Assembly (NCBI GenBank): GCA_012270305.1
Contig: JAAXIO010000041.1
Location: forward strand, 1-35,001
DNA: 35,001 nucleotides
Reading direction: 5' to 3'
Source: Candidatus Saccharimonadota bacterium
Lineage (GTDB): Bacteria; Patescibacteriota; Saccharimonadia; Saccharimonadales; Saccharimonadaceae
Positions within the stretch are counted from its first letter, which is position 1. Each line of letters starts with the position of its first letter. The translations under genes were made by a program, and so were the position numbers. This document shows, in pieces, positions 8,294 to 26,774 of the stretch. The notes beneath the pieces are model-generated. The model ran no database searches and was not told the DNA's origin. It worked only from the letters and a program-made list of their open reading frames with translations.

Positions 8294-8340
8294 AGACCGA
8301 TTATAGCATCACAGTGAGCCGGTAGCGTATAATGGCTATC
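8294..8340. promoter_or_regulatory. Divergent leaderless promoters of manC and ugd
   Basis: Minus strand: TATAAT at 8300-8305, extended by TGC, ends 6 bases before the manC ATG. Plus strand: TATAAT at 8328-8333 ends 7 bases before the ATG at 8341. Transcription would start at or next to the A of each start codon. An in-frame ATG at 8332 lies inside the plus-strand -10 box, so it would not be transcribed. Confidence 0.65.
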
Positions 8341-9690
8341 ATGCAACCATCTACCATTACCGTCTTGGGAGCGGGGTATGTAGGACTTACTACAGCCGCC
8401 CTATTGGCACATGCCGGCTATACAGTATACGCACTCGAACCAAACAAAGCGCGACTTGATGTCATTAAGCAGGGTCGTTCATTCTTTTACGAAGCCGGTC
8501 TCGACCCTGTAATTAAAACCGCGCTTGAATCAGGTAAATTCATCCCAACCAATTCATACGAAGACAGCGTGCCCGGTAGCGACGTAGTATTTTCCTGCGT
8601 AGGTACTCCAGATAATCCTGATGGTAGCTCAAATCTTAGCTATGTTTTTTCGGCAGCAGAGCAAGCTGCAAAACTCATGAAGCAATCAGCAGTATTTGTT
8701 CAAAAGAGCACCGTACCCGTGGGAACAGGTGCTAAAATTCAAGAACTTTTCAGTACAATTAACCAGTCTTTACACTATGTCTCAAATCCTGAATTTCTTC
8801 GTGAAGGCACCGCTCTTGAAGATACTCTATTTTTTGACCGTGTTGTTGCCGGCGGTGACCATACTGAATCAGTTCAAACAGTCTTGAGTCTTTATCACCA
8901 ACTAGAAGCACAACGTGACTCAATTGCAGCGATCGCTGCTATTACTAGCACCGAAGCTAAAGGTGAGTACATTGCAACTGGCCTAGCCAGCGCAGAGCTC
9001 ATCAAAGTCACCGCAAATGCGTTCTTGGCACTTAAAATATCGTTCGCTAACTCAATTGCAAAACTCGCCGATAAGTCAGGTGCCGATGTTGTTGAAGTTA
9101 TGGATGCAGTTGGTGCCGATAAGCGTATTGGTCGCGCATTCTTAAACGCAGGCCGTGGCTATGGCGGCGGTTGCTTCCCTAAAGATGTAAGTGGGTTAAT
9201 TTCTAGTGGGTTAGACTACGGTGTAGATCTTGAAATCATGCAAGCAGCCCAAGGTGTAAATGGCAGCATGCCTGGCTATGTTGCCGAAAAGCTCCTGCAA
9301 GCACTTAATGGAAACCTTGAAGGTGCAAGCATCGCCATACTCGGGCTAGCCTTTAAAGCCGGTACAAGCGATAGTCGTAAGTCACCAGGTGTTGCCATTG
9401 CTAATATACTTTCAAAAGCGGGTGCAGTAGTAACCGCATACGACCCTAAGGCGAACGAAGAAGCCAAAGAAGATCTTCTTAGCAATATAACGCTCGTTGA
9501 TTCATTAGATGATTGTGTTCAAAACGCCACAGCAGTTGTTATTGCTACCGAATGGTCAGAATTTGCAAGCTTACCTGTCACATTCTACCAACAAATAAAC
9601 TCCTCGCTCATTATTGTAGATGCGGTGAATAAATTAGATAAACACGCGCTCGCTCAATCCAACTTACAATACATTGGCATAGGGCGTTAG
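8341..9690 (+). CDS. UDP-glucose/GDP-mannose dehydrogenase family (probable UDP-glucose 6-dehydrogenase)
   Basis: 449 residues from the ATG at 8341. That start is chosen because the -10 box TATAAT covers the upstream in-frame ATG at 8332. The N-terminal NAD-binding fold is TVLGAGYVGLTTAALL, followed by CVGTPDNPDG, QKSTVPVGT and NPEFLREGTA. The central helix LIKVTANAFLALKISFANSI precedes the catalytic Cys278 in GYGGGCFPKD. The C-terminal UDP-binding domain contains GLAFKAGTSDSRKSP. The family oxidises a nucleotide sugar C6 to the acid with two NAD+, most often UDP-glucose to UDP-glucuronate. UDP-GlcNAc or UDP-ManNAc as substrate cannot be excluded from sequence. It supplies a uronic acid for the island. 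It is followed after 21 bases by a GT2 gene with its own promoter. Confidence 0.93.
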   Translation: MQPSTITVLGAGYVGLTTAALLAHAGYTVYALEPNKARLDVIKQGRSFFYEAGLDPVIKTALESGKFIPTNSYEDSVPGSDVVFSCVGTPDNPDGSSNLSYVFSAAEQAAKLMKQSAVFVQKSTVPVGTGAKIQELFSTINQSLHYVSNPEFLREGTALEDTLFFDRVVAGGDHTESVQTVLSLYHQLEAQRDSIAAIAAITSTEAKGEYIATGLASAELIKVTANAFLALKISFANSIAKLADKSGADVVEVMDAVGADKRIGRAFLNAGRGYGGGCFPKDVSGLISSGLDYGVDLEIMQAAQGVNGSMPGYVAEKLLQALNGNLEGASIAILGLAFKAGTSDSRKSPGVAIANILSKAGAVVTAYDPKANEEAKEDLLSNITLVDSLDDCVQNATAVVIATEWSEFASLPVTFYQQINSSLIIVDAVNKLDKHALAQSNLQYIGIGR

Positions 9691-10667: not shown

Positions 10668-12050
10668 ATGACTAGCCACCCAAGAAAAAATAAAGCCGGA
10701 AAACGCATACGTGTTCCGAAGCTTTTTTCAACTTCAGATGTTAACTTCGTCGAAATTCTTCGACATTCATCTAAAGCATTTTTGATACTTGTTGGAGCTA
10801 CCGCACTTCAGTTTATTTTTGACCTTTTGCTCGCACAACGGTTCGGGGCAGATGGGTACGGAATTTTTTACCTATGCTTTTCAGTTGTCATGGTACTTGC
10901 CCTTATCGGAAGGTTGGGTATAGATCGAGCTGTTATAAAATTTATTCCCGCTTATATGACTGAAGGGCGTATCAATGCCGCTCGCGGAGTTAGTAATATA
11001 TCAGTTAAAACCTCCCTACTGTTTACGGTACCTATGGCGATTCTTCTATACATATCATCGGACACACTTGCTAGATCTATTTTTAACGAACCAAGTATAG
11101 CCTCTTACCTCAAGATATTTGCATTCGCTATACCCCCATTTGCCCTGTCTTACATATACTCTGGTATTTTAAAGAGTCTTAAAAAAACTGGGCCTTCTCT
11201 TTTTCTTGAAAGAATATCAATTTACTTTGTTGGAATATTATCGGTACTATTACTATCGTCCGGCTGGGGGATTGGCGCTATTATTACCGCCTTCACCCTT
11301 GCTTGCTATGGAACCGCTCTTGCAGGTGCCCTATTAACTTCAAAGTATCTTTATACAGTCACTCCAGCTATTTCCTTTAGTAGGCGCAAACTCCTGCTTA
11401 TATCAGGGCCATTACTTTTTGTTATGTTTGCAACTCAAATGAATGGCCAAGCGAGCGTTCTATTACTTGGTGTATTTGGATCTACGGTTGATGTAGGCGT
11501 ATTTAACGTTGCGTTAAAAATATCCATGCTAATGAGTATTGTCTTGGCGGCTATTACAACCATATCTGCCACAAAAATATCCGAACTTTACTACAGTAAT
11601 CAAATTAAAGAGCTTGAACTAGTACTCAGTAAATCTAGTGCCCTGGCGGTTATCTTGGCCCTGCCGCTACTATTACTCATGACCTTATTCCCAAATTTCT
11701 TACTTGCATTATTCGGCTCTGAGTTCTTACCTGGGCGTGAAGCTTTAGTATTACTTGGCATTGCGCAGTTTATTAATGCAACACTAGGTGCATCAATTTT
11801 TGCACTCGGACTAACAGGTGGAGAGCGTAAATTAGCACTAGTAGTGGGAACATCGCTACTCGTAAATATTTCGCTCGGCTTTTTACTCATACCATTGTTT
11901 GGGGTTATTGGAGCGGGCATTGCCACTAGTTTAACTATTACCCTAAGCAACGTGATACTTGTTATCGTAGTTAAACGTACACTTGGAGTATGGCTTTTGC
12001 CGTTTGTAGCGCTAAGGTCATGGGCACGAAGCGCACTAGCCCTCAAGTAA
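10668..12050 (+). CDS. Oligosaccharide flippase (Wzx-type, MOP superfamily)
   Basis: 460 residues, with about 12-14 hydrophobic spans after a basic 35-residue N-terminal tail. The first helix pair (LILVGATALQFIFDLLLAQRFGADGYGIF) and the following LIGRLGIDRAVIKFIP match the start of polysaccharide biosynthesis/Wzx proteins (PF01943/PF13440). The role is to flip undecaprenyl-PP-linked oligosaccharides across the membrane. It works with the sugar-1-P transferase at 1.8 kb and a Wzy/ligase-like protein. It begins 5 bases after the GT2 gene. Its 3' end overlaps the end of the convergent glycerophosphotransferase gene by 15 bases (12036-12050). Confidence 0.88.
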   Translation: MTSHPRKNKAGKRIRVPKLFSTSDVNFVEILRHSSKAFLILVGATALQFIFDLLLAQRFGADGYGIFYLCFSVVMVLALIGRLGIDRAVIKFIPAYMTEGRINAARGVSNISVKTSLLFTVPMAILLYISSDTLARSIFNEPSIASYLKIFAFAIPPFALSYIYSGILKSLKKTGPSLFLERISIYFVGILSVLLLSSGWGIGAIITAFTLACYGTALAGALLTSKYLYTVTPAISFSRRKLLLISGPLLFVMFATQMNGQASVLLLGVFGSTVDVGVFNVALKISMLMSIVLAAITTISATKISELYYSNQIKELELVLSKSSALAVILALPLLLLMTLFPNFLLALFGSEFLPGREALVLLGIAQFINATLGASIFALGLTGGERKLALVVGTSLLVNISLGFLLIPLFGVIGAGIATSLTITLSNVILVIVVKRTLGVWLLPFVALRSWARSALALK

Positions 12051-13199
12051 TTGTTTTAGACGCTTGAAGTATCGCTCCGTCGCACGACCATCAAGGGTGT
12101 CGCCGTAAGCAACTTTTTTTATATGATCAATAGAATCTTTGTTCTCCTCAATATAGGACGATGGGGTGTCCAGGTACCTTTTGATAATGTCTTTAAATAT
12201 GCCAATGTCACTTACTATTGGTCCAAACCTATTTGCTGGTGTACAACGCGTACTTAACTCTTTCCCCACAAATGGCGGCTGGCCGTCAATAAACACAACA
12301 GGTCGTTCAGTAACCATAAAATCGAACGCAATTGACGACCAGTCGGTCACTACTATGTCGGCAATCGATATTATCTCTTCCGTATCTGGATAATCATGTG
12401 ATGATAAAGCGGTTATATTACTACTTGCCGCACTCAAATCATCGCTTAACATATGCGCCCTAAATACAACATGGCTATTCGTAGCATCGGCTAATGCATT
12501 TAATTCACTTATGAAATCAGTTGACGTAAGCCCAAAGGGAAGTTCACTTCTATCCGGGTTATTATGCTTCCAAGTAGGTGCAATTAGTATGATTTTTTTA
12601 TCGAGTGGTAAGCCATATTTTTGGCATACAGAAACTTTATTATACCCACCCATAACAAGCTTATCTACTCGGCCATATCCAGTTACTTCTAAATGAGAGC
12701 GTAGCTTGTAACGTTCACGGTAGAAGTCTTTCATCGCAGGTGAAGACACCCAAATTTCTGAATAGTTGTTTAAATAATTCATTATCATAGGTGTTTGGTT
12801 CTTAAGCATTGGTAAGCCATGCCACACATCAACAAGTTTCAAGCTTGTCCATTTGGCATAGTACCGTAAGGTTAGCGAACCGTAATTCGTAACTATCACA
12901 TCACTCTGAGCTACTCGTATCATGTCGATGGGATTAAGCATACTTAGAGTTGGTAATTTATGCTTTCCGTCATATATCTTTAGGTACTCAGGGAAGGCCA
13001 AAAAATACATTTCAATTGATGAGTCATGGAGCTGTATATATTCCATCAACGCCTGACTGTTGCCATGCATCTGATAAAAGAATACAACACGTTTTGTGCG
13101 TTTTGGTTTAAAAAATCGAAATGGAATTGAAAATATAATATTTATGCCGCTAATAAGCAGCATAATCCAGTGTGACAAGTTATCTTTTTCAACCTTCAT
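12036..13199 (-). CDS. CDP-glycerol:glycerophosphotransferase family protein (TagB/TagF-like)
   Basis: 387 residues, last gene of a four-gene minus-strand operon. It belongs to PF04464 (Glyphos_transf): DVWHGLPM with the probable catalytic His127, APTWKHNN (about 208), FRAH (His249), TDWSSIAFDF (about 285-294) and the terminal GRATERYF. A hydrophobic stretch (about 11-28) can anchor it at the membrane. Family members add one (TagB) or many (TagF) glycerol-phosphate units from CDP-glycerol to a lipid-linked or glycan acceptor. The length, close to TagB and lacking the N-terminal domain of TagF, favours single or limited addition. Its ATG overlaps the TGA of the tagD-like gene (ATGA), so donor synthesis and use are coupled. 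The 3' end overlaps the Wzx gene by 15 bases. Confidence 0.9.
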   Translation of the reverse strand: MKVEKDNLSHWIMLLISGINIIFSIPFRFFKPKRTKRVVFFYQMHGNSQALMEYIQLHDSSIEMYFLAFPEYLKIYDGKHKLPTLSMLNPIDMIRVAQSDVIVTNYGSLTLRYYAKWTSLKLVDVWHGLPMLKNQTPMIMNYLNNYSEIWVSSPAMKDFYRERYKLRSHLEVTGYGRVDKLVMGGYNKVSVCQKYGLPLDKKIILIAPTWKHNNPDRSELPFGLTSTDFISELNALADATNSHVVFRAHMLSDDLSAASSNITALSSHDYPDTEEIISIADIVVTDWSSIAFDFMVTERPVVFIDGQPPFVGKELSTRCTPANRFGPIVSDIGIFKDIIKRYLDTPSSYIEENKDSIDHIKKVAYGDTLDGRATERYFKRLKQLLEG

Positions 13200-13597
13200 G
13201 ATCTATCATTTACATTTTTATGAATATCTTTAATTGCCGTTGATGATATGTTGGGCGTGCGCGGTAAATATACAAGTTCACATATGCTGGCTAAGTTATC
13301 GAATTCGCCTTGCCAATCATTGCCCATAACAAAAACATTGATATTATGTAATTCTATATCTTTTTCTTTCTGATTCCAATCGTTTTCGGATATAATTTCA
13401 TCTACGTATGTAATAGCTGAAAGCATCTCTTTGCGTTTTTCATAATCAAAATACGATGTCTTCCCTTTGGCTTTGTTAAATTCATCAGACGATAGGCCAA
13501 CCACTAAATAATCTCCGTGCTCTTTAGCACGCCTTAGCAGTTCTAAGTGTCCATAATGCAAAAGATCAAATGTGCCGTAGGTTATAACTTTTTTCAT
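13196..13597 (-). CDS. tagD: Glycerol-3-phosphate cytidylyltransferase
   Basis: 133 residues from the ATG at 13597, close to the usual 129-132 of TagD/GCT. It begins MKKVITYGTFDLLHYGH with the HxGH nucleotidyltransferase motif at residues 14-17. VVGLSSDEFN, the YVDEII strand and TPNISSTAIK near the end (the TxGxSTT-like loop) are all family positions. The reaction is glycerol-3-P + CTP to CDP-glycerol + PPi. An upstream TTG (13627) would add ten residues unlike any TagD, so the ATG is preferred; GGTGAAG lies upstream of it. It ends in an ATGA overlap with the CDP-glycerol glycerophosphotransferase, its obvious partner. Confidence 0.93.
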   Translation of the reverse strand: MKKVITYGTFDLLHYGHLELLRRAKEHGDYLVVGLSSDEFNKAKGKTSYFDYEKRKEMLSAITYVDEIISENDWNQKEKDIELHNINVFVMGNDWQGEFDNLASICELVYLPRTPNISSTAIKDIHKNVNDRS

Positions 13598-13619
13598 AAA
13601 ATACACTTCACCACACCGG

Positions 13620-14714
13620 TCATTCAACCATACTTTTCATAGAAGCAATATACTGCTTTGCAACCGCTTCCCAGCTGAATTTTTTTATAGTATAAGACCG
13701 AGCAGCTACACCAAATTGATGCTTTGTTGTATCAGTACACACGTTGATAATCGTATCAATATAGCATGAAGCATCCTTTGGCTGGACCAGTATTCCGTTC
13801 TTTCCATCCGTAATTGCATCTTGGATTCCTTCGAGCTTTGATGCTATCACGATCCGTTCAGCGGAAGCGGCCTCAAGCGCCACCAGACCAAAGCCCTCCA
13901 TGTCGCCCGGCACTGGAATGTTTGGCATTACATAAATATCAGCACAATTATACAGAGCGTGCAGCACATCATCGTTAATCCTACCAAGCATGTGCACCAC
14001 TTCTTGAAGCCCATGTCTTTTAACCGCTTCTCTCACGTTATCCAAGTCAGGACCAGTACCGGACACAAAGTAGACTACGTCTCTATTCATTTTTTTAACT
14101 AATTCCGGCAATACGGCATCAATAAACCACGCTACACCTTTACGCTTTACCAGTCTTCCGCCGCTATGTACAATTAATGATTTCTCCAAGTTTGCTACGT
14201 GCATACCTGTTGCGGTTGCGATTACGTCAAGCTGCTGCTTACGTGGCTTCGAGGAATAGAATTTATCCTCAACGCCATTATTTATTACCTCAACTGCTAT
14301 ATCTCCCAAACTTTCAATAACGGCAGCTTTAGATTCTTCACTAACAGCTATAATTTTGCCCTGCCTTTTTATGCACGGTAATATTATCTTTCTATAAAAT
14401 GTATTTTTATAAGTCACTTCTAACCCATGAATAGTTACGACCGTCTTGGTCTTAAATAAAAACCTAAGCACTACTCCGATTGGCGCCATAAGCCCATCTT
14501 GCAAATATATTGTGTCATATTTGCCAAACATCAGTTTGCCGCATGCGCGCAGAAACAACCATGGATATATTAAGGGAAGCCATTTATTGTCGCCTCCCCA
14601 TTTTATTAACGCAACTTCTTCATGCCGAATCAATTCACCATACAGATTGACTGCCATGTTCTCCATGCCGCCCGTACTTGGTGGATATTTTCTAGTAATG
14701 AATAATATCTTCAT
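13620..14714 (-). CDS. GT4 family glycosyltransferase
   Basis: 364 residues. GT-B fold: the N-terminus FITRKYPPSTGGMENMA has the GG acceptor loop of GT4 enzymes, VVTIHGLEVTYKN and VSEESKAAV follow, and the C-terminal half has HSGGRLVKRKGV and the donor-binding EGFGLVALEAAS (intact E-x7-E). It resembles PimA/PimB-like mannosyltransferases in general layout. The donor is unknown, with GDP-mannose or GDP-rhamnose both available in this locus. Second gene of the operon: it starts 8 bases after the stop of the multi-span membrane protein and its stop lies 22 bases before the tagD ATG. It may build the acceptor that the glycerophosphotransferase decorates. Confidence 0.85.
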   Translation of the reverse strand: MKILFITRKYPPSTGGMENMAVNLYGELIRHEEVALIKWGGDNKWLPLIYPWLFLRACGKLMFGKYDTIYLQDGLMAPIGVVLRFLFKTKTVVTIHGLEVTYKNTFYRKIILPCIKRQGKIIAVSEESKAAVIESLGDIAVEVINNGVEDKFYSSKPRKQQLDVIATATGMHVANLEKSLIVHSGGRLVKRKGVAWFIDAVLPELVKKMNRDVVYFVSGTGPDLDNVREAVKRHGLQEVVHMLGRINDDVLHALYNCADIYVMPNIPVPGDMEGFGLVALEAASAERIVIASKLEGIQDAITDGKNGILVQPKDASCYIDTIINVCTDTTKHQFGVAARSYTIKKFSWEAVAKQYIASMKSMVE

Positions 14715-16362: not shown

Positions 16363-16392
16363 TTGACTAAACATAAGTATGTTTGCTACAAT
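16363..16392 (+). promoter_or_regulatory. Promoter with palindromic spacer (candidate operator)
   Basis: TTGACT (-35, 16363-16368) and TACAAT (-10, 16387-16392) are separated by 18 bases, with TG one base before the -10 box. The spacer contains the perfect inverted repeat AAACATA-AG-TATGTTT (16369-16384). A protein bound there would block RNA polymerase, so this is the best operator candidate in the window. It drives the 178-182 residue membrane protein and the large secreted protein. Confidence 0.65.
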
Positions 16393-16404: not shown

Positions 16405-16950
16405 ATGCAAATAGAAAAAAATAAAAATAGCAAAAAACGATACATCGTACTAGGCGCAATTATAGCGCTCGCCACGGGTTCGTTTGCCGTCTATTATTTC
16501 TTTCAGCATTCAAAGCAAGAAAATTATATCAACTTAGAGTCTCCAACGAATGAACAGATTAAAGCGGGATCAAACTCAAAAAATGCCACAGTTAAAGGAG
16601 AGCCAAGGGATACCGGTAATCTTGAGAGCGATCAAGATAACACGAACACCGCCGCCGGTAAGACTCCTCAAATACTAATTACAGCAGCGTCACAAAACAA
16701 TAATATAATACAAGTTCGATCAATAATTCAAAAAGTAACCACTGAAGGTTCATGCACACTCACACTTACAAAAGACCAAACTATAATTCGTAAGTCAGCA
16801 TCTGTTCAAGCACTCGCCGATAGTTCAACTTGCAAAGGTTTTGATATTAGCATAAGTGAATTTCCTGACAAAGGTACTTGGTTGGCAACAGTGTTATACG
16901 AAGACGCTAACGGACGATCGGAGGCATCAAAAAATGTTGTCATTAATTAG
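16405..16950 (+). CDS. Membrane-anchored small extracellular protein, unknown function
   Basis: 181 residues from the ATG at 16405 (a GTG at 16402 is directly in front and could also be used; both lie 9-12 bases after the -10 box, so the leader is only a few bases). A Lys/Asn-rich N-terminus (IEKNKNSKKRY) is followed by one membrane helix (about residues 13-31). Then comes a low-complexity Asn/Ser/Asp/Thr linker (about 35-80), then a compact domain of about 95 residues with two Cys and alternating beta-type segments that could be an Ig-like fold. The orientation rule predicts the domain outside the cell. I do not recognise a family. Its last 17 bases overlap the start of the large secreted protein gene, which points to joint expression. 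Confidence 0.75.
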   Translation: MQIEKNKNSKKRYIVLGAIIALATGSFAVYYFFQHSKQENYINLESPTNEQIKAGSNSKNATVKGEPRDTGNLESDQDNTNTAAGKTPQILITAASQNNNIIQVRSIIQKVTTEGSCTLTLTKDQTIIRKSASVQALADSSTCKGFDISISEFPDKGTWLATVLYEDANGRSEASKNVVIN

Positions 16951-19924
16951 CTTAAAACTACCATTCGAGAAGATTAATTCATTTATGCCTACTGGTCAAT
17001 TCTTTGCAATTGTACTTTTATCCCTATTTTTTGCGTTAATAGCTGTAAGTAACCCCGTGCACGCACAAGCATGGAGAGCCGGAAAAATCATCGACGATTA
17101 TACATTTGCCAATACCTCAACGATGAGTTCTGCACAAATACAAACATTTCTAAACAGTAAAGTATCAAGCTGCGACACAAATGGCCAACAGAATTCAGAA
17201 TTCGGCGGACCAGACCTTAATAAAGATGGCCGTGTGCAGCGCTGGGAATGGGGTAAAGCGAATTATAATCAGACCACTTTTCCCTGCTTAAAGGATTATA
17301 CTCAGGGCGGCAAAAAAGCCTCGCAAATTATCTACGATGTTGCTCAAAAATATCAAATTAATCCTCAAGTTTTAATAGTACTACTACAAAAAGAACAAGG
17401 GCTTATAACCGACACGTGGCCTTTGAACATTCAATATCGCTCCGCAACAGGCTACGGCTGCCCAGACACTGCACCATGCGATAGCCAATACTATGGCCTC
17501 ACCAATCAACTCGACTGGGCCGCAAAAATGTTCAGGGCTATTCTAAATGCAAGTCCAAGCTGGTATACCCCATACGTACTGGGCAACAACACTATTCGCT
17601 TCAACCCAGATGCATCATGCGGCAGTTCAGTTGTCAATATTGAAAATAGAGCAACTCAAGCGTTGTACAACTACACTCCATATCAACCAAACTCTGCAAC
17701 AATAGCCGCACCGATGGGCGCTACAGTAAGTTGCGGAGCATATGGTAATATTAACTTTTTACGATACTTCAATGCTTGGTTTGGAGTAACATACAATCTT
17801 GGATATGCCACTACATGGACTGGGCAATCCAGCCACCCAACTCTGAATCCAGGCCAGTCATTTACAGGCTTCGTAACGTATCGAAATAGCGGCAGTGTTG
17901 CTTGGTATGACAATAATAGCAATCCTGTGCGCATTGCAACCGATGAGCCGATCAATAGAGCAAGCGACTTTGCCTTGAATGATACTTGGGGGGGAGACAA
18001 AAACAGACTTTCGCTACTATTTGATACTGTTTACGATAAAGATGGAAACGAATACTCTTCTAACCCTCATGTTGTGAAGCCTGGTGAAAGCGTTAAATTC
18101 AGCTACACAATAACCGTCCCGGAGAACTATCCAGCTGGTACATATAAAGAGTTTTTTAAACCTATTGCAGAAGGTTCAAAAAGCACAATACTCACCAGTC
18201 CATCAAAGGCATGGATTAATATAACAGTTAACACGGCACGTAAATCTCAATATGTAAGTCAATCGAGCAACCTAACCCTCCGTGGCGGCGAACAGAAAAG
18301 CTCATATATCGACTTCAAGAATACTAGTAACTTCACTTGGTATGACAATATAACGGCGGGGAAAAACGGCGGAACTCCAGTGAGACTTGCCTCCGTTAAT
18401 TCTTCAGCCAATACCAACCAGTCTTCCCAACTTGGTGATAGCGCATGGGGCACTGATCGCAACAGGCCAAGTGGCGTATTTTCTGCAGTTTTCAATAAAA
18501 GCGGTCAGCAGTACGCATCCAACCCACATGCAGTAGCACCTGGAGAAACTGCTCGTTTTAGCTTCACGATGACGGCACCAGGTAACGCTAGTCCAGCATC
18601 AGTGCGAACATATTTTGCACCTGTCATTGACGGAGGAGCTGGTATCATTCCGGTTACTAATAGCTTAGGCTCACCGATTAGCGTTTGGACTGACACCTCT
18701 ATCATAGCTGGCTCAGCGCTTAGGCCACAGCAAGATTCTATCAATCTTACTATCAATCCACGCACTCAGTCTTCAATAAACTATCAGTTCAAGAACACAG
18801 GCTCGACGACACTGAGTCAAGCAAATACTACACTAAATATTGTTTCTGGGAGCGCTTCCGCTCTAAAGGATACCTCTTGGCCAAGCGATTCAATTATCGG
18901 CCGCCTTAACCAAACTCAGGTAGCTCCGGGTGAAATCGCAACTTTTACAGCAATATTTAATGCACCGTCAACAAAGAGTAGTAGCACATTCTCTGTTAGC
19001 CCATACGTATCCGACTCACAAATAGGACTGGGTGATATTAAAACAAGTATCTCAACGCCCAACCCGATATACTCTGCAACCTACGCAGGACAATCTAGCT
19101 ATCCGACAATTAATCAAGGTTCAAGTACCCGCTCGGTACTTCTTTACCGAAACTCAGGTAATACCCCTTGGTACGATGTAACCTCTGTACCCAGTGGCGC
19201 ACAGCCTACTGTCCTGGCAACGACCAATGCCATCAATCGCAAAAGTGTATTCAGCGCTGGATTTGCAACGAACAACCGAGCAAGTATAGAATTTAGCGCA
19301 GTTTACAAAGCTGACGGTTCACCCGCTTCAAATCAGCACATAGTACAGCCAGGTGAAATAGCCGAGTTTACCTTTAATCTTGCCGCAAGTCAGAGAGTCA
19401 AACCAGGTGTGTATCGTGAGTTTTTCCAGCCCATTGTCGAAGGTGGTAATCCGTGGAACATGGGCGGTGTCGCCTGGACCAACGTAACGGTTAAAAAAGC
19501 GACTTTCAGTGCATCTTGGGTGAAACAGTCGAATTACCCAACAGTCACTAAAGGGGCTTCTGCTCAAGTTGACTTTTACTATAAAAACACAGGCACTGCC
19601 GTATGGTATGATGCTACAGCTGTACCCCAGGGACTAAACCCAATCACGTTTGCAACAGTGAACCCTATTAATCGATCAAGTATGTTCCTGCCAAGTAATC
19701 GTCCAAATGTTGTCTTTTCTGCCGTGTACGAAGCAGACGGTACAACACTAGCTGTAGATCAACACACCGCATTACCGGGACAGGTCGTTCAATTTAGCTT
19801 TACTTTAAATGCCCCAGCCTCGTTACAGCCAAGCATATACCGCGAGCACTTCCAGCCAATTCTGGAAGGTGGCAGTACTTGGAATATCGGAACCCTTTCA
19901 TGGACCGATATTACAGTTAACTAG
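16934..19924 (+). CDS. Secreted surface protein: lysozyme-like N-terminus plus five NBR1-type Ig-like repeats
   Basis: 996 residues. The ATG at 16934 is chosen because GGAGG (16920-16924) lies 9 bases upstream; the frame is open further up without such a site. A signal-type hydrophobic segment (22-38) ends at PVHA, with cleavage likely after Ala44. An EF-hand-like 12-residue loop follows at 94-105 (DLNKDGRVQRWE). Residues about 130-290 contain INPQVLIVLLQKEQGLITD (Glu154) and GCPDTAPCDSQYYGL, which I know from many secreted actinobacterial proteins and which look like a lysozyme/transglycosylase-type fold. Six Cys lie in this region. Five repeats of about 120-155 residues follow, with YRNSGSVAWYD, INR, VxPGE and FxPIxEGG motifs as in NBR1-type Ig domains. 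No sortase motif or membrane anchor is seen at the C-terminus. Enzymatic activity is inferred, not shown. Confidence 0.85.
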   Translation: MLSLISLKLPFEKINSFMPTGQFFAIVLLSLFFALIAVSNPVHAQAWRAGKIIDDYTFANTSTMSSAQIQTFLNSKVSSCDTNGQQNSEFGGPDLNKDGRVQRWEWGKANYNQTTFPCLKDYTQGGKKASQIIYDVAQKYQINPQVLIVLLQKEQGLITDTWPLNIQYRSATGYGCPDTAPCDSQYYGLTNQLDWAAKMFRAILNASPSWYTPYVLGNNTIRFNPDASCGSSVVNIENRATQALYNYTPYQPNSATIAAPMGATVSCGAYGNINFLRYFNAWFGVTYNLGYATTWTGQSSHPTLNPGQSFTGFVTYRNSGSVAWYDNNSNPVRIATDEPINRASDFALNDTWGGDKNRLSLLFDTVYDKDGNEYSSNPHVVKPGESVKFSYTITVPENYPAGTYKEFFKPIAEGSKSTILTSPSKAWINITVNTARKSQYVSQSSNLTLRGGEQKSSYIDFKNTSNFTWYDNITAGKNGGTPVRLASVNSSANTNQSSQLGDSAWGTDRNRPSGVFSAVFNKSGQQYASNPHAVAPGETARFSFTMTAPGNASPASVRTYFAPVIDGGAGIIPVTNSLGSPISVWTDTSIIAGSALRPQQDSINLTINPRTQSSINYQFKNTGSTTLSQANTTLNIVSGSASALKDTSWPSDSIIGRLNQTQVAPGEIATFTAIFNAPSTKSSSTFSVSPYVSDSQIGLGDIKTSISTPNPIYSATYAGQSSYPTINQGSSTRSVLLYRNSGNTPWYDVTSVPSGAQPTVLATTNAINRKSVFSAGFATNNRASIEFSAVYKADGSPASNQHIVQPGEIAEFTFNLAASQRVKPGVYREFFQPIVEGGNPWNMGGVAWTNVTVKKATFSASWVKQSNYPTVTKGASAQVDFYYKNTGTAVWYDATAVPQGLNPITFATVNPINRSSMFLPSNRPNVVFSAVYEADGTTLAVDQHTALPGQVVQFSFTLNAPASLQPSIYREHFQPILEGGSTWNIGTLSWTDITVN
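17801..19921 (+). repeat. Five tandem Ig-like repeats within the surface protein gene
   Basis: Approximate units: 17801-18234, 18235-18708, 18709-19062, 19063-19492, 19493-19921. Units 1, 2, 4 and 5 share a Trp-Tyr pair (AWYD, TWYD, PWYD, VWYD), an INR-type turn in three of them, PGE/PGQ and an F-x-P-I/V-x-x-G-G element. Unit 3 lacks the Trp-Tyr pair and is shorter. The repeats are diverged at DNA level, so they are old, not a recent tandem expansion. Confidence 0.75.
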
Positions 19925-19941
19925 GCTCTGAACCTAGTTAA
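19917..19941. terminator. Hairpin shared by two convergent stop codons
   Basis: TTAACTAGG-CTCTGAA-CCTAGTTAA is a perfect 9-bp stem with a 7-base loop. The TAG stop of the plus-strand surface protein (19922-19924) lies in one arm and the TAG stop of the minus-strand glycosyltransferase (19934-19936) in the other. It is probably a bidirectional terminator or RNA-end stabiliser. No U-run follows on either strand, so the mechanism is open. Confidence 0.6.
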
Positions 19942-22309
19942 GAATACGCTTAATATCTTCTTTCGAACTTCCGGCTCGTAGTGCTGTGGCTACCTCGGCA
20001 TTAAGCCCCTTAGCCGCTTGCGACTTGATAATATACTCGTGAATCCTCTTAGCATATTCCTCATGCGTGAAGTCTTCTGAGGTAATCAATCGGCTCTTTT
20101 CGCTCCTGACTTGTCGTAAATCATCGTCATAGCAAAGCTCGTGTAGAGCAGGAATAATATCCGTAATGTCATCAACCTTAACCACGGCATCGTCAGGTAG
20201 CTCGTCATACCATCCGATGCGGCGTACAATCGGCACAACGCCAAGCCGCATAGCTTCAAGTGTAGATGCAGACGCTTCACCATTATAGTCAGGGCGGTAG
20301 TTAACTAAAATATCGACATTAGCTAATTGGGATTGAAATTGGAAATCTGTAAGATCCGTAACAATTGTTACATTATGCATCGCTCCGATACGTTGCAGTT
20401 CTGCTTCATCAATCAAAGGAATACCAAATATATATATATCAACTTCATCAAATAGCCCGGATGCTTGGATGTCATCAAGCACCTTCAAACCCTTAGCGGG
20501 ATGAATTATACCAGCAAATCCAATTGTTATACGATTGCTAATTTTATTTTTTCTTAGCTGTGGTGTCGCTACTGGTAGATTTGCTCTATATACAGGTACT
20601 TCTTTGGGGGCTACTGCGCGCAGACTATCGGCGCTAAACTCCGAGTGAGCAATCAGGGCAAGTTGTGCGTTAGCAATAGTTGTCGTATAGGAGGTAGTCT
20701 CTACACCTGATAACTCATTGAGATACTTTTCTGCCGCGAACCTCTCCTTTGATATAAAGCCTCGTTTGACAAGGTCGCCGTCAAATATGCCACCCAAATT
20801 TATATCATGCATGACCGCCACACCTGGGAGGTAAAATGCGTTCTTAATTGTTTCAAGATGGAACTCGCTATTCCCTATGTGGTATAAAACTCCTGCATAC
20901 TTTTGATATGATTTGGCACCAAATGTCCGCGCATCTTTCACGGTTGCAATCGCAGGAAGGTAACTTGGGCGCACAGGTGGTCGGCCACCGACACCCTTTT
21001 CTACATAATAATCAATGTCAAAGTACTCACTCAGCGCTGGATGTAGGTGCATATTAAACTTACCTATAGCCGAATACCCTGCTGGATCAGGTAAAAACAC
21101 TGCAATTTTCTGCTTCGCCTTATCCAATCTGGGCTTTTCTATTGAGTCGACCAAGCTCCTTAATGCATCTTTAGCGGAAATCTCCCACGTATACCTACGC
21201 AGAATCTTAGGGTATTCTCTCTTCTTCTTCGAAAAGTCATTACCTTGTATTGCGTGCTTAATGGCCTCCGCGATTGAAGCTGGCGAGAACTGATTAGCGT
21301 AGTAAAATGCCGTCGAAGACAGCTCATTAAATCCCGTCAAATTCGACCAAATAATTGGCTTATTAGCTTCAACACCCTCAAGTATTGGCAGGCCAAGCCC
21401 CTCATACTCAGGTACGAAAAGTATCCCTATGGCATTTTGGTATAACCAAAGCAACTCACCTTCAGAAACATTGCCCGTAAACTGAATATGCTTTGATCGC
21501 CGCCTAAGATTGTTCCTTGTATCTTCATCAAAATGCGACGTAATGAGGAGAGTTAGCGGTGCTTCAGGATTTTGATGATTATACGTAGCCAAGCCATCCA
21601 CTGCACGCTCATTATTTTTCCGAAGGTCATTACCCGAAGGCATAAGTAAGAAACGTTTTGGCACTTCAATGCTTCCGGGCTTCTGAGTATTCTGCTGAGC
21701 CCTTGGAATCGGTGCACCGTTTATGTTAGTCAATTTACTCTTATTAATACCCGTATATACCATCAAATCATCCGCAACCGTCTGTGAGATAGTCCAGATT
21801 CTGTCGGCTTCAAGGATAACCTTGAAACGCCGCAAATAATTTTCATAACTATGAAACAACCCGTATCTTTCCGAGTATTGAAGCGGAATAAGATCATAGA
21901 AAAGCAGTATTTTACGGACGTTAGCAGGAAAGACACTGCAAACTTGATCAATAAACAATGATAATATAATGAAATCAACGGCAGTATTATTGATATGTTC
22001 GCTGATAAACTTATTAAGAGTCACCTTGTTTTGTCGCATAATCTGCTCAATTGAACGATGATCGTGAATATTGGGCACCTTCAAGTCAAGAAATACCAGT
22101 TCTACACCCGGAGCAGCACGCCTGATAGCTGCTTCTGCAGCAGCTTCGAGCTTCAGGTTTTTTGTAAAAAAGATAGATGTCTTTTTGTAATTATACTGGT
22201 CGTCTTTCAGAAGCGCCTCAAGCAAACTGAGCGAATACTTGCCCATGCCTCGATCCCACGCGGCACTCTGAAAAACCTGTCCGTCAAATACAATTTTTCT
22301 GTCACTCAC
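19934..22309 (-). CDS. Two-domain GT4-GT4 glycosyltransferase
   Basis: 791 residues, about twice a normal GT4, with two GT-B units in tandem. Unit 1 (about 1-385) begins IVFDGQVFQSAAWDRGMGKY and has LMPSGNDLRKNNERAVDG and EGLGLPILEGVEANKP (intact E-x7-E). Unit 2 (about 395-780) has the NFM/HLHPALSE start, VLYHIGNSEFH, VAVMHDINLGG, IGFAGIIHPAKGLKVL and GEASASTLEAMRLGVVP. Such double enzymes often add two successive sugars of a repeat. The start is GTG with AAGGAGA 4-6 bases upstream, overlapping the TGA of the upstream FkbM gene (GTGA). It is the last gene of the Wzm-Wzt operon. Its stop is inside the hairpin it shares with the convergent surface protein gene. Confidence 0.88.
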   Translation of the reverse strand: MSDRKIVFDGQVFQSAAWDRGMGKYSLSLLEALLKDDQYNYKKTSIFFTKNLKLEAAAEAAIRRAAPGVELVFLDLKVPNIHDHRSIEQIMRQNKVTLNKFISEHINNTAVDFIILSLFIDQVCSVFPANVRKILLFYDLIPLQYSERYGLFHSYENYLRRFKVILEADRIWTISQTVADDLMVYTGINKSKLTNINGAPIPRAQQNTQKPGSIEVPKRFLLMPSGNDLRKNNERAVDGLATYNHQNPEAPLTLLITSHFDEDTRNNLRRRSKHIQFTGNVSEGELLWLYQNAIGILFVPEYEGLGLPILEGVEANKPIIWSNLTGFNELSSTAFYYANQFSPASIAEAIKHAIQGNDFSKKKREYPKILRRYTWEISAKDALRSLVDSIEKPRLDKAKQKIAVFLPDPAGYSAIGKFNMHLHPALSEYFDIDYYVEKGVGGRPPVRPSYLPAIATVKDARTFGAKSYQKYAGVLYHIGNSEFHLETIKNAFYLPGVAVMHDINLGGIFDGDLVKRGFISKERFAAEKYLNELSGVETTSYTTTIANAQLALIAHSEFSADSLRAVAPKEVPVYRANLPVATPQLRKNKISNRITIGFAGIIHPAKGLKVLDDIQASGLFDEVDIYIFGIPLIDEAELQRIGAMHNVTIVTDLTDFQFQSQLANVDILVNYRPDYNGEASASTLEAMRLGVVPIVRRIGWYDELPDDAVVKVDDITDIIPALHELCYDDDLRQVRSEKSRLITSEDFTHEEYAKRIHEYIIKSQAAKGLNAEVATALRAGSSKEDIKRILN

Positions 22310-23442
22310 TTTAGTCTCCTTGCCTGTATTGCCCGGCGAGCCCTCTTCATGCCCTTTAATGGAGTTCTCGTAGCTTGTCGGTATATACCGTTCGCAGCAC
22401 GATAAAGCATCCGCTCACCCGAACCGTTGCCATATAGTGACATAAAATCGTATAGACGAACTCTCCGAAGAGTTTCGTCCAAGCTTGCATTTTTTGTAAT
22501 ATCGAGTTGCTTTGTCTTCACAACCTTTGGTTTATTTAACTTGGCAATATACACAGCCGCAGCTCGATCCACTGCACGAGCGACGCTTTTAACCGAACCT
22601 TTAATCCCACTAGTTCTTGCAATCTCATGATGCAGCCTCGTTACTTCGCTTACCAAGTGAGCCCGCTCGACGTCAAAGTTTGCTATTCGTGTTGCAAGAT
22701 TACCGTTACTCTTCTGGAGCTCTTTGACAAACATAGCTGCTTGCCTTGTGAGAATCGGTGTAGGGAAGATCGTCTTTGCGTACGAAAAAGATTCAATAAT
22801 TTCAGAATGCTCATTTGCAACGTAGTAATTATTGAGTCCGTCAAACAGCAGTAACACGTAGTCTTGTTTCTGCAAATATTTATCCCATTCGTGCTGGATA
22901 TGTGTTGCCTCTATGCAAATTACCCATGGTCGAAACTTCTTCCAGTCATTGCCACGCAGAACCTCGTATTCAAAACCTTCGACGTCAATCTTCATAAAGT
23001 GAATATTCTTTGGAGCATGTTCCTTCAAAACCTCAGACAACGTCTCGATCTGCACTTCGCTATCTTCATACGTATCCGTATGTACGTCATGATTCTTGCT
23101 ATACTCCTCCATCATGCCAGGAGAAAATGTCGACAAACCATCGCCGTTCTTATAATAGCGAAATTTCCTTCGCTCTTTCTTAGCGCCCATACCGATATTC
23201 AAATTAATATCTCTTGGTCGCGCTGCAATAATACCCTCGAATAAGTCAGGGCTTGGTTCAACATTAATACCGCGCCAACCTTTGTCGTAAAAAAGCTTTG
23301 TCACCGAATCGAGCGTTGCATGGTTTGCACCCACATCAACATAGAAGCCCTCCTCTATGTTTTTTAGCATACCCTCGAGTAAAATATCTTCTCGGTTTTG
23401 GGCGTATGATACCTTAAACGGCATCGTCACATCATCTCGCAT
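22306..23442 (-). CDS. FkbM family methyltransferase with C-terminal coiled region
   Basis: 378 residues. The start at 23442 is preferred over the ATG at 23448 because AGGAG ends 6 bases before the former and directly abuts the latter. The N-terminal part starts VSYAQNREDILLEG and contains the SAM-binding FYVDVGANHATLDS, GINVEPSP, and FMKIDVEGFEYEVLRG, all standard for FkbM/Methyltransf_21 (PF05050). These are O-methyltransferases often found in glycan loci. From about residue 235 a heptad-like stretch (MFVKELQKSNGN through HLVSEVTRLHHEIA) suggests a coiled coil, followed by a basic tail. The 5' end overlaps the upstream GT4 gene by 11 bases and the 3' end overlaps the next gene by 4. Acceptor unknown. 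Confidence 0.88.
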   Translation of the reverse strand: MRDDVTMPFKVSYAQNREDILLEGMLKNIEEGFYVDVGANHATLDSVTKLFYDKGWRGINVEPSPDLFEGIIAARPRDINLNIGMGAKKERRKFRYYKNGDGLSTFSPGMMEEYSKNHDVHTDTYEDSEVQIETLSEVLKEHAPKNIHFMKIDVEGFEYEVLRGNDWKKFRPWVICIEATHIQHEWDKYLQKQDYVLLLFDGLNNYYVANEHSEIIESFSYAKTIFPTPILTRQAAMFVKELQKSNGNLATRIANFDVERAHLVSEVTRLHHEIARTSGIKGSVKSVARAVDRAAAVYIAKLNKPKVVKTKQLDITKNASLDETLRRVRLYDFMSLYGNGSGERMLYRAANGIYRQATRTPLKGMKRARRAIQARRLK

Positions 23443-24562
23443 TATCATCTCCTACTATATCAGTTAATGAAATAATTTTCTTTGCCGTCTCTTTCCATGT
23501 ATAGCCAGGGTGTGCTTTGGCCACATACTGCTTAGCATCCGCCTGCTTCATGGCAGCTGCAATAGATGAACTATCCTGTGAATTAACAAGATATCGGCCA
23601 ATACTACTAGCAACCTCTCTAAGCACCGGTATGTCGGACACTATCACCGGAGTGCCACACGCCTGAGCCTGCACTACAGACAACCCAAATCCTTCATGAA
23701 GAGATACATGAACTAGCGCTTTAGCACCACTATATAGTGCTGGTAGCAAGTCATCCTCTACGTAGGTATTTGGCCGTACGATGCCATAACCAGCAGCACG
23801 TAAAACCTCAATATGCTCGTTAATCGTGTCGTTTTTCCAGCCATCTCCACCAATCAACACAAGCTTTGAAGCAGTCTGTACACTGTCCGCGTACAACTGG
23901 TAAGCCTCAAGGAGTACCATGATGTTTTTTCGAGGCTCAATATTGCCTACGTAAATAAAATAATCGCCATCGATACCAATCTTTTTGCAGACTAGAGTAA
24001 TTTCATCAACCGATCTTTCATAGAACATATTTGTATCAACACCCAGGGGTACTAGCTGCACCTTTTCTTTATATTCTGGAAAAAGCTCCGTTATTTCGTC
24101 TGCTGAAGCTTGCGATATTGTAGCCAGTACTTGCGCCCGCTTCATCCAACGTGTCATATTTGCATTCAAATACAAGAGGTTCTTGGGGTGAATTGTCTCA
24201 GGAAAAATTTTATACGCTACATCGTGCACAAAAGTTATCGACTGAGAAAACGGAACATACCAGTTTTTGTAATTAGGAAATATATAAACACCCCTGCCGA
24301 AAAACACATCAACAGGAATGGGAAGTGAGGTTCTGACCAGTAAACGATTAACGTACCTGTAGCCTGGCAGTAATGTGCGCACCTTCACGTCAATTAGATT
24401 ATACTTTTCCAGTTTCGACTTAGTACCAAATGGAACCACAACTACAATCTGATCATTTGTGTTTTTCTGAAGTGATAGAGCACGAATAATCTCGAGTGTG
24501 GCGTGACCAATCCCGCTCATTCTATCAGTTGCAATTGAGTCAGCCTCAATAACAATACGCAT
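23432..24562 (-). CDS. GT4 family glycosyltransferase with altered E-x7-E motif
   Basis: 376 residues, GT-B fold. It starts IEADSIATDRMSGIGHATLE, the N-terminus usual for WbdA/MtfB-like mannosyl or rhamnosyl transferases; FVHDVAYKIFPE, SQASADEI, YVGNIEPRKNIMVLLEAY and HEGFGLSVVQAQACGTPVIV follow. The second Glu of the donor-binding E-x7-E pair is Gln here (codon CAG), an unusual change at a position normally kept. All other motifs are intact, so it may be active with altered donor use. It starts 5 bases after the stop of the upstream FkbM gene and overlaps the next one. GDP-D-rhamnose or GDP-mannose are plausible donors by context only. Confidence 0.86.
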   Translation of the reverse strand: MRIVIEADSIATDRMSGIGHATLEIIRALSLQKNTNDQIVVVVPFGTKSKLEKYNLIDVKVRTLLPGYRYVNRLLVRTSLPIPVDVFFGRGVYIFPNYKNWYVPFSQSITFVHDVAYKIFPETIHPKNLLYLNANMTRWMKRAQVLATISQASADEITELFPEYKEKVQLVPLGVDTNMFYERSVDEITLVCKKIGIDGDYFIYVGNIEPRKNIMVLLEAYQLYADSVQTASKLVLIGGDGWKNDTINEHIEVLRAAGYGIVRPNTYVEDDLLPALYSGAKALVHVSLHEGFGLSVVQAQACGTPVIVSDIPVLREVASSIGRYLVNSQDSSSIAAAMKQADAKQYVAKAHPGYTWKETAKKIISLTDIVGDDNAR

Positions 24563-24567
24563 ACAGC

Positions 24568-25593
24568 CTACTTCTCGCCGTGGTCAATAATGGCGGCTCG
24601 ATATGCGTCTATGAGAATTTGTAAATCATCCTCGTATGTTCGAAAGAGCGCCGCATCAGTGTGATTAATGCTAGTATCGACAGTAAAGTCCTTGTCACGC
24701 TCATCGAAAGACGCAACGATTAACCCATCTCCACTGAAAGATTCTGGAATTGTATGGCTAGATATAATGTGCCCGCCGCGCTTTTTAATAAAAGTTAAGC
24801 AGTCGGCATGCGTATTTACCGATCGAGAGAAAAGGTAGTGGTGTGTTGACACAAAAAGGAATCGCAGCTTGCCGCTTTTAATTGTCTCTTCCACACCTTT
24901 CAGAGTTTCAAGCTCAAATCCTTGGACGTCCATATGCAGAAGATCAAGTTTTTCAATTTTCTTCATCTTCATTATACCGTCAACCGAAAATGCCGGGATA
25001 TCAACCACCTTGCTAGGGTTCGAATCAAGTGAAATCGGAATAACACCACCTTGTTGCGAACTGATTGCACCCTTCAGGAAATCAATCCCACTATTACCAT
25101 TGAGTTTTGCGTTTCGTTTTCCAAGAGCAATATTTTTTGGATCCGGTTCTAGGCAGATATTTCGAGCGTTTTTAATCCGCTTTGAGAACCAGAGGCTGTA
25201 GTATGCCCAGTACGAGCCAAGTTCAATCATCGTCGCGCCTGAATCAATTCGCTCAAATACTTCATAAAAAGCCTTTTCTTCATGAGGCTCATGGTGGCCG
25301 CGCAAATCTTTGATAATCTCAGTCATCCATTCACCGACATATCCATCAGCTTCTACAACAATACCGTTGTGTAGCACCTGGATGTCCTTACCCTTGCGAC
25401 GAATAACCTGACCAGCATTCTCAACCTTAGGAATATAATCTGTGTCATGACAAGATGTTGTCATTGCTTTTCGCTGCTCATTGGTCATCCGACCGATATT
25501 TGGAGCACTCAGCAATATATCCACTGGGTCAACCACAGCCACGGCATCATTTTCGGTGTTTTTAGTGCGTATTTTTTTAAACATTTTTTTCAT
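24568..25593 (-). CDS. FkbM family methyltransferase
   Basis: 341 residues, no membrane segment. After an N-terminal region of about 110 residues without recognised motifs comes the SAM fold: MIELGSYWAYYSLWFSKRI (motif I), NICLEPDPKNIALGKRNAKL, and LDLLHMDVQGFELETLKG, all FkbM/PF05050 elements. FVSTHHYLFS and GGHIISSHTIPESFSGDGLIVAS close the fold. It most likely O-methylates a sugar of the exported glycan. It starts with GGAG upstream and the junction TAATATG after the ATPase stop, and ends 5 bases before the GT4 start. It differs clearly from the second FkbM gene of this operon, so the two are not a recent duplication. Confidence 0.86.
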   Translation of the reverse strand: MKKMFKKIRTKNTENDAVAVVDPVDILLSAPNIGRMTNEQRKAMTTSCHDTDYIPKVENAGQVIRRKGKDIQVLHNGIVVEADGYVGEWMTEIIKDLRGHHEPHEEKAFYEVFERIDSGATMIELGSYWAYYSLWFSKRIKNARNICLEPDPKNIALGKRNAKLNGNSGIDFLKGAISSQQGGVIPISLDSNPSKVVDIPAFSVDGIMKMKKIEKLDLLHMDVQGFELETLKGVEETIKSGKLRFLFVSTHHYLFSRSVNTHADCLTFIKKRGGHIISSHTIPESFSGDGLIVASFDERDKDFTVDTSINHTDAALFRTYEDDLQILIDAYRAAIIDHGEK

Positions 25594-25594
25594 A

Positions 25595-26773
25595 TTACTC
25601 CCTCTCCAATACTATCGGTGGTGTTACCATGAAAGATGTTCTATCCTGTAAGCGCACGTCAAAGCTAAGTTCCTCATCCCTCCAATCGAACACGACCCCA
25701 TCACCTTCAAGAGCAAAAGCAATATCATACGACCCATCAGAAAATATATTAGGCACTTTCCAAACAAGCGTCACTGTCTCATCCGTGGTAACGCCAAATG
25801 ACTGCCCCTGCATAACATTATTCGTTCCCAGTACCGGAACACCCGCAGCGTTTTTAATCGAAAAGCCACATGTAATCATATCAACGTTCTTTTTTGCCTT
25901 TATTTTTGTGGTAATGACCAACTCTGGCACATCCTCGGTGAGTACACTGCTATTTAGCTGGATAGCATCAAAGCCAACCTCACCAGTTCCCCACTTACCC
26001 TCAGATTCAACACTTTTGGAGGACTCCATGAATAGTTTTGAGTATTCGCTCGCCACCTGACTACTTAAACCTTCAAGAATAAGATCGCCTCGATCAATCA
26101 ATACAGCCCTGTCGCAATACTCTCGCACTGCATTCATATCATGACTAACAAAAACAACAGTTGTTTTTGCCTTCTTGAGTCGCTTAAAGTATTCAAAACA
26201 CTTCCGCTGGAAATCAGCATCACCTACAGCGAGCACTTCATCAATCAAGAGAATGTCAGCCTTCGCACGCGTCGCCACAGAGAATGCCAAACGAACCTGC
26301 ATTCCAGATGAGTAGTTCTTTAATTGTTGATCCATAAAGTTTTCAAGTTCAGCAAATTCAACGATGTCACCGTACATCTCATCGACTTCTTTTTCGCTAA
26401 AGCCATTTAACGCGCCGCTCAAGTATACGTTTTCGCGGCCCGTTAGTTCAGGATTAAATCCAACACCAAGCTCAATGAATGGCACCAAACGGCCTTTTAC
26501 ACTAACTTCACCGCTAGTGGGCTGGTAAATCTCGGCGAGAATTTTAAGCATCGTGCTCTTGCCACTTCCATTGCGACCAACGATGCCAAAGAACTCACCT
26601 TCTTTTATATCGAAGCTTATGTCATTTAGCGCATGCTGAACTTCGACGGCTCTACTACCGCCCAGTGCTTGGAGTGGACGAACAAATACGTCTTTTATGG
26701 AAGATGTTTTTTGGTGTGGAAGCTTAAAATTCTTTGAGACATTTTTTACCGAAATTGCAATTGGATTGTTCAT
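25595..26773 (-). CDS. wzt: Polysaccharide ABC exporter ATPase with C-terminal glycan-binding domain (Wzt type)
   Basis: 392 residues from the ATG at 26773; GGAGG lies 9 bases upstream, so the longer open frame is not needed. The ABC domain has Walker A GRNGSGKST (66-74), the family-specific GVGFNPELTGRENVYLSGAL (about 103-122), signature YSSGMQ (154-159), Walker B ILLIDEV (174-180, Glu179) and His211. Residues about 262-388 form a separate beta-rich domain (VGFDAIQL, GTNNVMQGQS, WKVPNIFSDGSYDIAFAL) that fits Wzt_C (PF14524). In E. coli O9a/O8 type systems this domain reads the modified non-reducing end of the polymer before export. TagH-type ATPases have other C-termini. It is coupled to the permease (TAATATG). 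Confidence 0.92.
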   Translation of the reverse strand: MNNPIAISVKNVSKNFKLPHQKTSSIKDVFVRPLQALGGSRAVEVQHALNDISFDIKEGEFFGIVGRNGSGKSTMLKILAEIYQPTSGEVSVKGRLVPFIELGVGFNPELTGRENVYLSGALNGFSEKEVDEMYGDIVEFAELENFMDQQLKNYSSGMQVRLAFSVATRAKADILLIDEVLAVGDADFQRKCFEYFKRLKKAKTTVVFVSHDMNAVREYCDRAVLIDRGDLILEGLSSQVASEYSKLFMESSKSVESEGKWGTGEVGFDAIQLNSSVLTEDVPELVITTKIKAKKNVDMITCGFSIKNAAGVPVLGTNNVMQGQSFGVTTDETVTLVWKVPNIFSDGSYDIAFALEGDGVVFDWRDEELSFDVRLQDRTSFMVTPPIVLERE

Positions 26774-26774
26774 A

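Follow-up and report, generated by a model that had tools for sequence, protein, structure and literature searches.

The described enzymes that come closest to the protein treated here are the lytic transglycosylases of the GH23/SLT type (PF01464) and the GH73 glucosaminidases such as AtlE and LytB (PF01832), while its C-terminal part recalls the NBR1-type immunoglobulin-like (Ig) domain (N_BRCA1_IG, PF16158) and, in relatives, the wall-anchored CWB2 and LGFP proteins of Gram-positive bacteria. The protein is encoded on contig JAAXIO010000041.1 (C39 in our set) of a Candidatus Saccharimonadota genome that comprises 0.91 Mb in 55 contigs; the stretch analyzed, 35,001 nucleotides long, is referred to below as the window. 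Two open reading frames (ORFs) on the forward strand, which lie between oppositely oriented genes and overlap by 17 nt, encode a small membrane-anchored protein (the partner) and a secreted protein of 996 amino acids (aa), whose N-terminal domain (N-domain) most probably belongs, judging from structure prediction and profile comparison, to the lysozyme superfamily as a remote branch that has so far no label. Among the papers listed in literature searches on Saccharibacteria together with lysozymes, peptidoglycan hydrolases, LGFP, Leucobacter or Microbacteriaceae, none describes the family. As far as the libraries and the literature searched show, the combination of such a branch with a fixed Ig-like partner and a setting among surface-glycan genes is undescribed, as a first-pass annotation made from the DNA alone had supposed for the combination that it saw. 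The features of the pair are as follows.

16405 to 16950, forward strand: anchored partner, 181 aa (ORF translation; one transmembrane (TM) segment near the N terminus)
16934 to 19924, forward strand: secreted lysozyme-like multidomain protein, 996 aa (best start ATG at 16934, inside the 3' end of the partner gene)
16934 to 17065, forward strand: signal peptide region of the large protein, residues 1–44, ending in ...VHAQA (translation inspected)
17066 to 17809, forward strand: predicted lysozyme-superfamily N-domain, residues 45–292, 248 aa (AlphaFold2 (AF2), Foldseek, hhalign, alignment A1)
17213 to 17248, forward strand: EF-hand-like loop DLNKDGRVQRWE, residues 94–105 (alignment A1)
17393 to 17395, forward strand: codon of Glu154, the predicted catalytic acid (invariance and hhalign, see below)
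17786 to 18217, forward strand: Ig-type repeat R1, residues 285–428 (leave-one-out hidden Markov model (HMM))
18218 to 18673, forward strand: Ig-type repeat R2, residues 429–580 (leave-one-out HMM)
18707 to 19024, forward strand: Ig-type repeat R3, diverged and shorter, residues ~592–697 (leave-one-out HMM; Pfam)
19046 to 19483, forward strand: Ig-type repeat R4, residues 705–850 (leave-one-out HMM)
19481 to 19912, forward strand: Ig-type repeat R5, residues 850–993 (leave-one-out HMM)
16363 to 16392, forward strand: promoter-like site TTGACT-18-TACAAT of the extended -10 type (10 of 12 consensus positions matched in a scan; a TG precedes the -10)

Sequence searches with residues 45–292 returned zero matches in Pfam, NCBIfam and PDB. 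AF2, supplied with an alignment of 33 homologues (A1), produced a model with a predicted local distance difference test (pLDDT) score of 94.5 and a predicted TM-score (pTM) of 0.91. Among the PDB matches listed by Foldseek for this model, GH73 glucosaminidases, goose-type lysozymes, lytic transglycosylases (including SltB, MltF, MltC, and MltE) and phage lysins dominate, and the highest probability (0.84) is that of AtlE (4pi7), although with a low TM-score (0.33). The best function-named matches among the viral models of BFVD were mostly transglycosylases, glucosaminidases, and muramidases, with probabilities of up to 0.97. Because no Foldseek match passed E ≤ 0.001 and the TM-scores were low, the N-domain is placed on a remote branch. 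A deep family profile of the N-domain was furthermore aligned by hhalign with SLT domains taken from Actinomycetota. This gave the best profile match (E 1.8e-4), in which the Glu of the LQKEQ motif, located in INPQVLLVLLQKEQ, lines up with the catalytic Glu of the SLT domains. GH73 matched more weakly (E 2.3e-3), and six unrelated control profiles (three for enzyme families and one each for Wzm, Wzt, and the partner) stayed at E 0.67–0.94. The residue in question, Glu154, is invariant in all 79 rows of a homologue alignment that spans several classes and two phyla, as are one Gly, the Gln of the GLxxQ motif and the Tyr, Tyr, Thr, and Pro of YxYTP. Also as in SLT enzymes, the Glu ends the first core helix and is followed by GLxxQ-type and Tyr motifs, the latter two having been placed by eye. 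Since such invariance of Glu154, the GLxxQ Gln and YxYTP is typical of an active site, the N-domain is probably catalytically active. The lysozyme-like character proposed initially is supported, as is the secretion of the large protein, which is suggested by its signal peptide.

There are, however, clear differences to both enzyme families. The Pfam SLT model misses the window protein as well as members of the alignments A2, A3, and A4, so by this model the N-domain would fall outside GH23. The family is also longer, has a Cys-rich GYGCPDTAPC segment (which occurs in the window protein together with LQKEQGL) and a YxYTPYxPN motif, and is combined with C-terminal modules of its own as well as with an anchored partner. 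From GH73 it is set apart by the lack of any Pfam match and by the low TM-score to AtlE. The EF-hand-like loop noted at first is indeed present in the window protein, but only about 8 of the 33 homologues carry it and it is absent from the rest; it therefore appears to be a lineage-specific insert outside the core fold.

The five NBR1-type Ig repeats that had been read from the sequence were confirmed. When each repeat was searched with an HMM of the others, R1, R2, R4, and R5 were recovered at E 1e-39 to 4e-34 and the diverged R3 at E 2e-7. Pfam N_BRCA1_IG matches the large protein at E 2.3e-13 with 51 bits against a curated cut-off of 28, the best-scoring stretch being residues 606–682 in R3. 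Unlike in the described domain, five tandem copies follow a lysozyme-like domain, and most of them are found by their own profile and not by that of Pfam. R4 additionally has a weak phmmer match (E 0.012) to a chain in the solved structure 5hno, that of the ATP-binding protein of an ABC transporter. The C-termini of homologues are, judged by their domain matches, variable modules of wall- or glycan-binding types: N_BRCA1_IG was found in 8 of 34 relatives, B_lectin in four, DUF5648 in three and LGFP in one, and the 22 Microbacteriaceae proteins include seven with LGFP and two with CWB2. These Microbacteriaceae homologues resemble the wall-anchored proteins of Gram-positives, whereas the window protein has Ig repeats and the N-domain family is without a model in the libraries searched. 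According to a published report, CWB2 binds PSII, an anionic polymer on the surface of the cell that makes the protein (PMC4973711), and for this reason the C-terminal modules may bind a glycan of their own cell. Distant homologues carry D-Ala-D-Ala carboxypeptidase and PG_binding_1 domains, a PcsB coiled coil, a dockerin, or a subtilase. In one of them, from a distant patescibacterium (L233, 4275–6683), the lysozyme-like domain, a D-Ala-D-Ala carboxypeptidase (peptidase S11) and PG_binding_1 are joined in one protein. Three distant homologues from Actinomycetota (L257, L258, and L259) stem from 1.8-Mb genomes, and the PcsB-type coiled coil of L257, which lies slightly below the Pfam cut-off, resembles that of regulated autolysins.

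The partner consists of a basic cytoplasmic stub, a TM segment at about residues 13–32, a low-complexity linker and a C-terminal Ig-like domain (residues 86–181) with the two invariant residues Cys117 and Cys143. This domain was modeled by AF2 as all-beta with a pLDDT of 97.5. Its Foldseek matches in the PDB are generic Ig-like domains, for example of carbohydrate-binding modules, adhesins, RbmA, and CTLA-4; a lysozyme inhibitor is absent from the best 50, no Pfam match was obtained for the partner, and its profile found only chance-level matches among PDB sequences. With the window partner as sole phmmer query, relatives were detected directly upstream of the enzyme gene in most Saccharimonadia, and the partner profile extended this to 44 of the 49 Saccharimonadia loci (weakly in L051). 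The profile had been built with most of the sequences that it later matched, yet it also recovered four that had been left out (L035, L045, L047, and L271), and it found no partner elsewhere in the searched stretches or in control regions. In four of the five Saccharimonadia loci without a profile match, this position is taken by a gene for an anchored protein about as large as the partner. The overlapping small anchored protein postulated initially is thus real and conserved. Partners also accompany four of the 22 Microbacteriaceae copies, one with a TM segment (L239) and three with a lipobox-like sequence (L250, L252, and L253); as most copies in this family lack a recognizable partner, the latter seems not to be needed in every case.

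Around the pair, the window contains a cluster of predicted surface-glycan genes.

1798 to 30218, no single strand: surface-glycan cluster around the pair (Pfam scan, translations)
10668 to 12050: flippase (this and all following by Pfam scan or translation)
12036 to 13199: CDP-glycerol glycerophosphotransferase
13196 to 13627: cytidylyltransferase-like protein
13620 to 14714, 19934 to 22309 and 23432 to 24562: glycosyltransferases
22306 to 23448 and 24568 to 25593: FkbM methyltransferases
25595 to 26833: Wzt
26775 to 27596: Wzm

The CDP-glycerol glycerophosphotransferase gene adjoins the cytidylyltransferase-like gene (12036–13627), which suggests a teichoic-acid-like glycerol-phosphate polymer for this Saccharibacterium. 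Stretches fetched at enzyme loci were compared with control regions of the same genomes. A Wzm homologue occurred in 19 of 49 Saccharimonadia loci vs. 0 of 10 control regions (Fisher p 0.013) and in 16 of 20 Microbacteriaceae loci vs. 1 of 10 (Fisher p 0.0004). At least three glycan-gene matches were counted in 30 of 49 Saccharimonadia loci (controls 1 of 10) and in 15 of 20 Microbacteriaceae loci (controls 0 of 10). In distant Patescibacteria outside the Saccharimonadia the association was much weaker, the stretches there being shorter. In both phyla, the enzyme gene resides in surface-glycan clusters with ABC-type export.

Homologues of the N-domain were detected in 36 of 41 genomes in the search of relatives, mostly as a single copy and with up to 75% identity, a recurrence for which chance can hardly account. 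In the same genomes SLT was found in 13 and GH73 in seven, which makes the N-domain family the most widespread of the three lysozyme-like families tested. Within the Patescibacteria overall, 148 of 380 genomes have the N-domain, with lower similarity in many outside the close relatives. In the Microbacteriaceae, close copies occur in 139 of 150 genomes, with one to six per genome. The LQKEQGL/GCPDTA signature had been linked to secreted actinobacterial proteins; close homologues do exist in this phylum, but not generally, as in a sample of 296 Actinomycetota genomes only four, all Microbacteriaceae, have close copies and six others distant ones. The unlabelled branch is thus found in most sampled Saccharimonadia and Microbacteriaceae. 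Few surface genes of Saccharibacteria have an understood role, and the enzyme gene is a nearly universal one. Phage and plasmid records gave no match to the window's or the Microbacterium version of the N-domain, so that an origin of the enzyme from phage lysins is not seen; from viral contigs, a single 40% fragment was retrieved. A 24,404-aa open frame at one homologue (G201:C1, 736337–736942) was dismissed as an artefact of N bases.

The enzyme tree comprised 77 rows, and its root was set by copies from other Patescibacteria together with two distant ones from Actinobacteria. All 22 Microbacteriaceae copies form one clade (97/83, ultrafast bootstrap (UFBoot)/Shimodaira–Hasegawa-like approximate likelihood ratio test (SH-aLRT)) nested inside the Saccharimonadia. 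Support is 100/99 for a set of 31 that unites them with nine Saccharimonadia copies, and 99/92 for their grouping with a single one of these (L042). Constraining the Saccharimonadia together and apart from the Microbacteriaceae cost 24 log-likelihood units, with approximately unbiased (AU) test p-values of 0.028 and, with L042 left free, 0.02, values that are moderate and come from limited sampling. The deeper branches are other Patescibacteria. As the Microbacteriaceae clade nests within the Saccharimonadia, transfer from the latter to the former is favored. By this tree, the most likely origin of the enzyme is in the Patescibacteria, from which Saccharimonadia passed it on to the Microbacteriaceae, in the opposite direction to the acquisition from a host that had been suggested at first. 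It would be a case of gene flow seemingly from small parasites into an actinobacterial family. In the partner tree, the partners from Microbacteriaceae are placed within the Saccharimonadia group in which the enzyme tree puts the enzymes, but this tree is too short for testing co-transfer (AU p 0.31). Tentatively, and with somewhat more doubt than confidence, it can be envisaged that a tethered peptidoglycan cutter guided by glycan evolved in Saccharibacteria, and that an ancestor of the Microbacteriaceae acquired it from them, multiplied it and integrated it into its own surface-glycan clusters. L042 (G022, 7728–9176), which is the Saccharimonadia copy placed with the Microbacteriaceae clade, has no upstream partner, and its genome also contains GH73 genes; a transfer back or a wrongly assigned contig could explain this copy.

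We lean toward a role of the pair as a two-gene surface module in which a tethered peptidoglycan glycosidase would remodel the wall of the cell that makes it, at sites that bear glycan. The exported large protein would cut peptidoglycan with its N-domain, as a glycosidase or lytic transglycosylase in which Glu154 acts as acid/base, and its C-terminal modules (here the five Ig repeats) would bind the surface glycan of the same cell, for whose export the nearby Wzm and Wzt genes would provide. Such binding would place the cutting where the polymer crosses the wall or is attached to it, and local cuts might let the polymer through or create attachment sites. The co-translated partner, a membrane-tethered Ig-like domain, would dock or control the enzyme at the cell surface. 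The fusions of distant homologues to D-Ala-D-Ala carboxypeptidase and PG_binding_1 or to the PcsB coiled coil point to a peptidoglycan context for the enzyme. Several results weigh against this reading: the Wzm association in Saccharimonadia is partial (19 of 49 loci in the stretches read) and compared with few controls, structural matches of the N-domain remain above the E-value of 0.001 with low TM-scores, R4 resembles a Wzt-type domain weakly (E 0.012), and 18 of the 22 Microbacteriaceae copies are without a recognizable partner. It has also been considered that the N-domain has a lysozyme fold without catalytic activity and only serves for binding, or as a structural element, within an adhesin on the cell surface. 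The failure to detect sequence-level similarity to characterized enzymes would agree with this, but the active-site-like residues conserved in all 79 homologues across several classes and two phyla make a dead fold very unlikely.

The first-pass annotation had instead envisaged a host-wall hydrolase or adhesin. In such a role, the enzyme would be secreted onto the actinobacterial host, its modules would bind the host envelope and its N-domain would breach the wall of the host to permit attachment or uptake, with the partner tethering or silencing it before contact. Near-universal presence (36 of 41) in an episymbiotic class and variable lectin- or wall-binding C-termini like those of phage lysins are in line with this proposal, as is the report that in a cultured Saccharibacterium lysozyme homologues beside virB4, which may be of this or of another family, are essential for epibiotic growth (PMC12102498). 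A dedicated host-wall weapon or adhesin nevertheless becomes less likely for an enzyme that 139 of 150 genomes of the Microbacteriaceae, a family known as free-living, carry, often in several copies, that is housed in own-surface glycan clusters in both phyla, and whose fusions with peptidoglycan-maturation enzymes resemble own-wall enzymes, and we regard this role as unlikely. The partner, for which a function as inhibitor or chaperone had been suggested, might alternatively be a dedicated inhibitor that protects the wall of the producer, as in an immunity-like pair, and not a tether. Proteinaceous lysozyme inhibitors are beta-rich, and a small anchored beta domain that is tightly coupled to and co-occurs with a lysozyme-like enzyme would suit such a function. 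Yet the domains that its fold resembles are of generic Ig-like, carbohydrate-binding and adhesin types, the best 50 matches include no lysozyme inhibitor, and most Microbacteriaceae copies keep the enzyme without it; an inhibitor thus appears rather improbable, and the earlier suggestion stays unproven. A Pfam match to the lysozyme inhibitor PliI came up for one homologue, where it could not be placed, and for none of the ten homologues scanned singly. Given the predicted active site, the fixed partner and the genomic context, a role of the enzyme in wall biology or in parasite–host contact is directly testable.

Since the promoter-like site lies close upstream and the neighboring genes on both sides are read from the other strand, the partner and enzyme genes look like a single transcription unit. 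The ATG of the partner at 16405 is 12 nt downstream of this site, which would leave a very short leader. A perfect 9-bp hairpin at 19917–19941 (TTAACTAGG-CTCTGAA-CCTAGTTAA), with a T-run on neither strand, includes the stop codon at the end of the large gene and reaches across the small space that separates it from the convergent gene for a glycosyltransferase.

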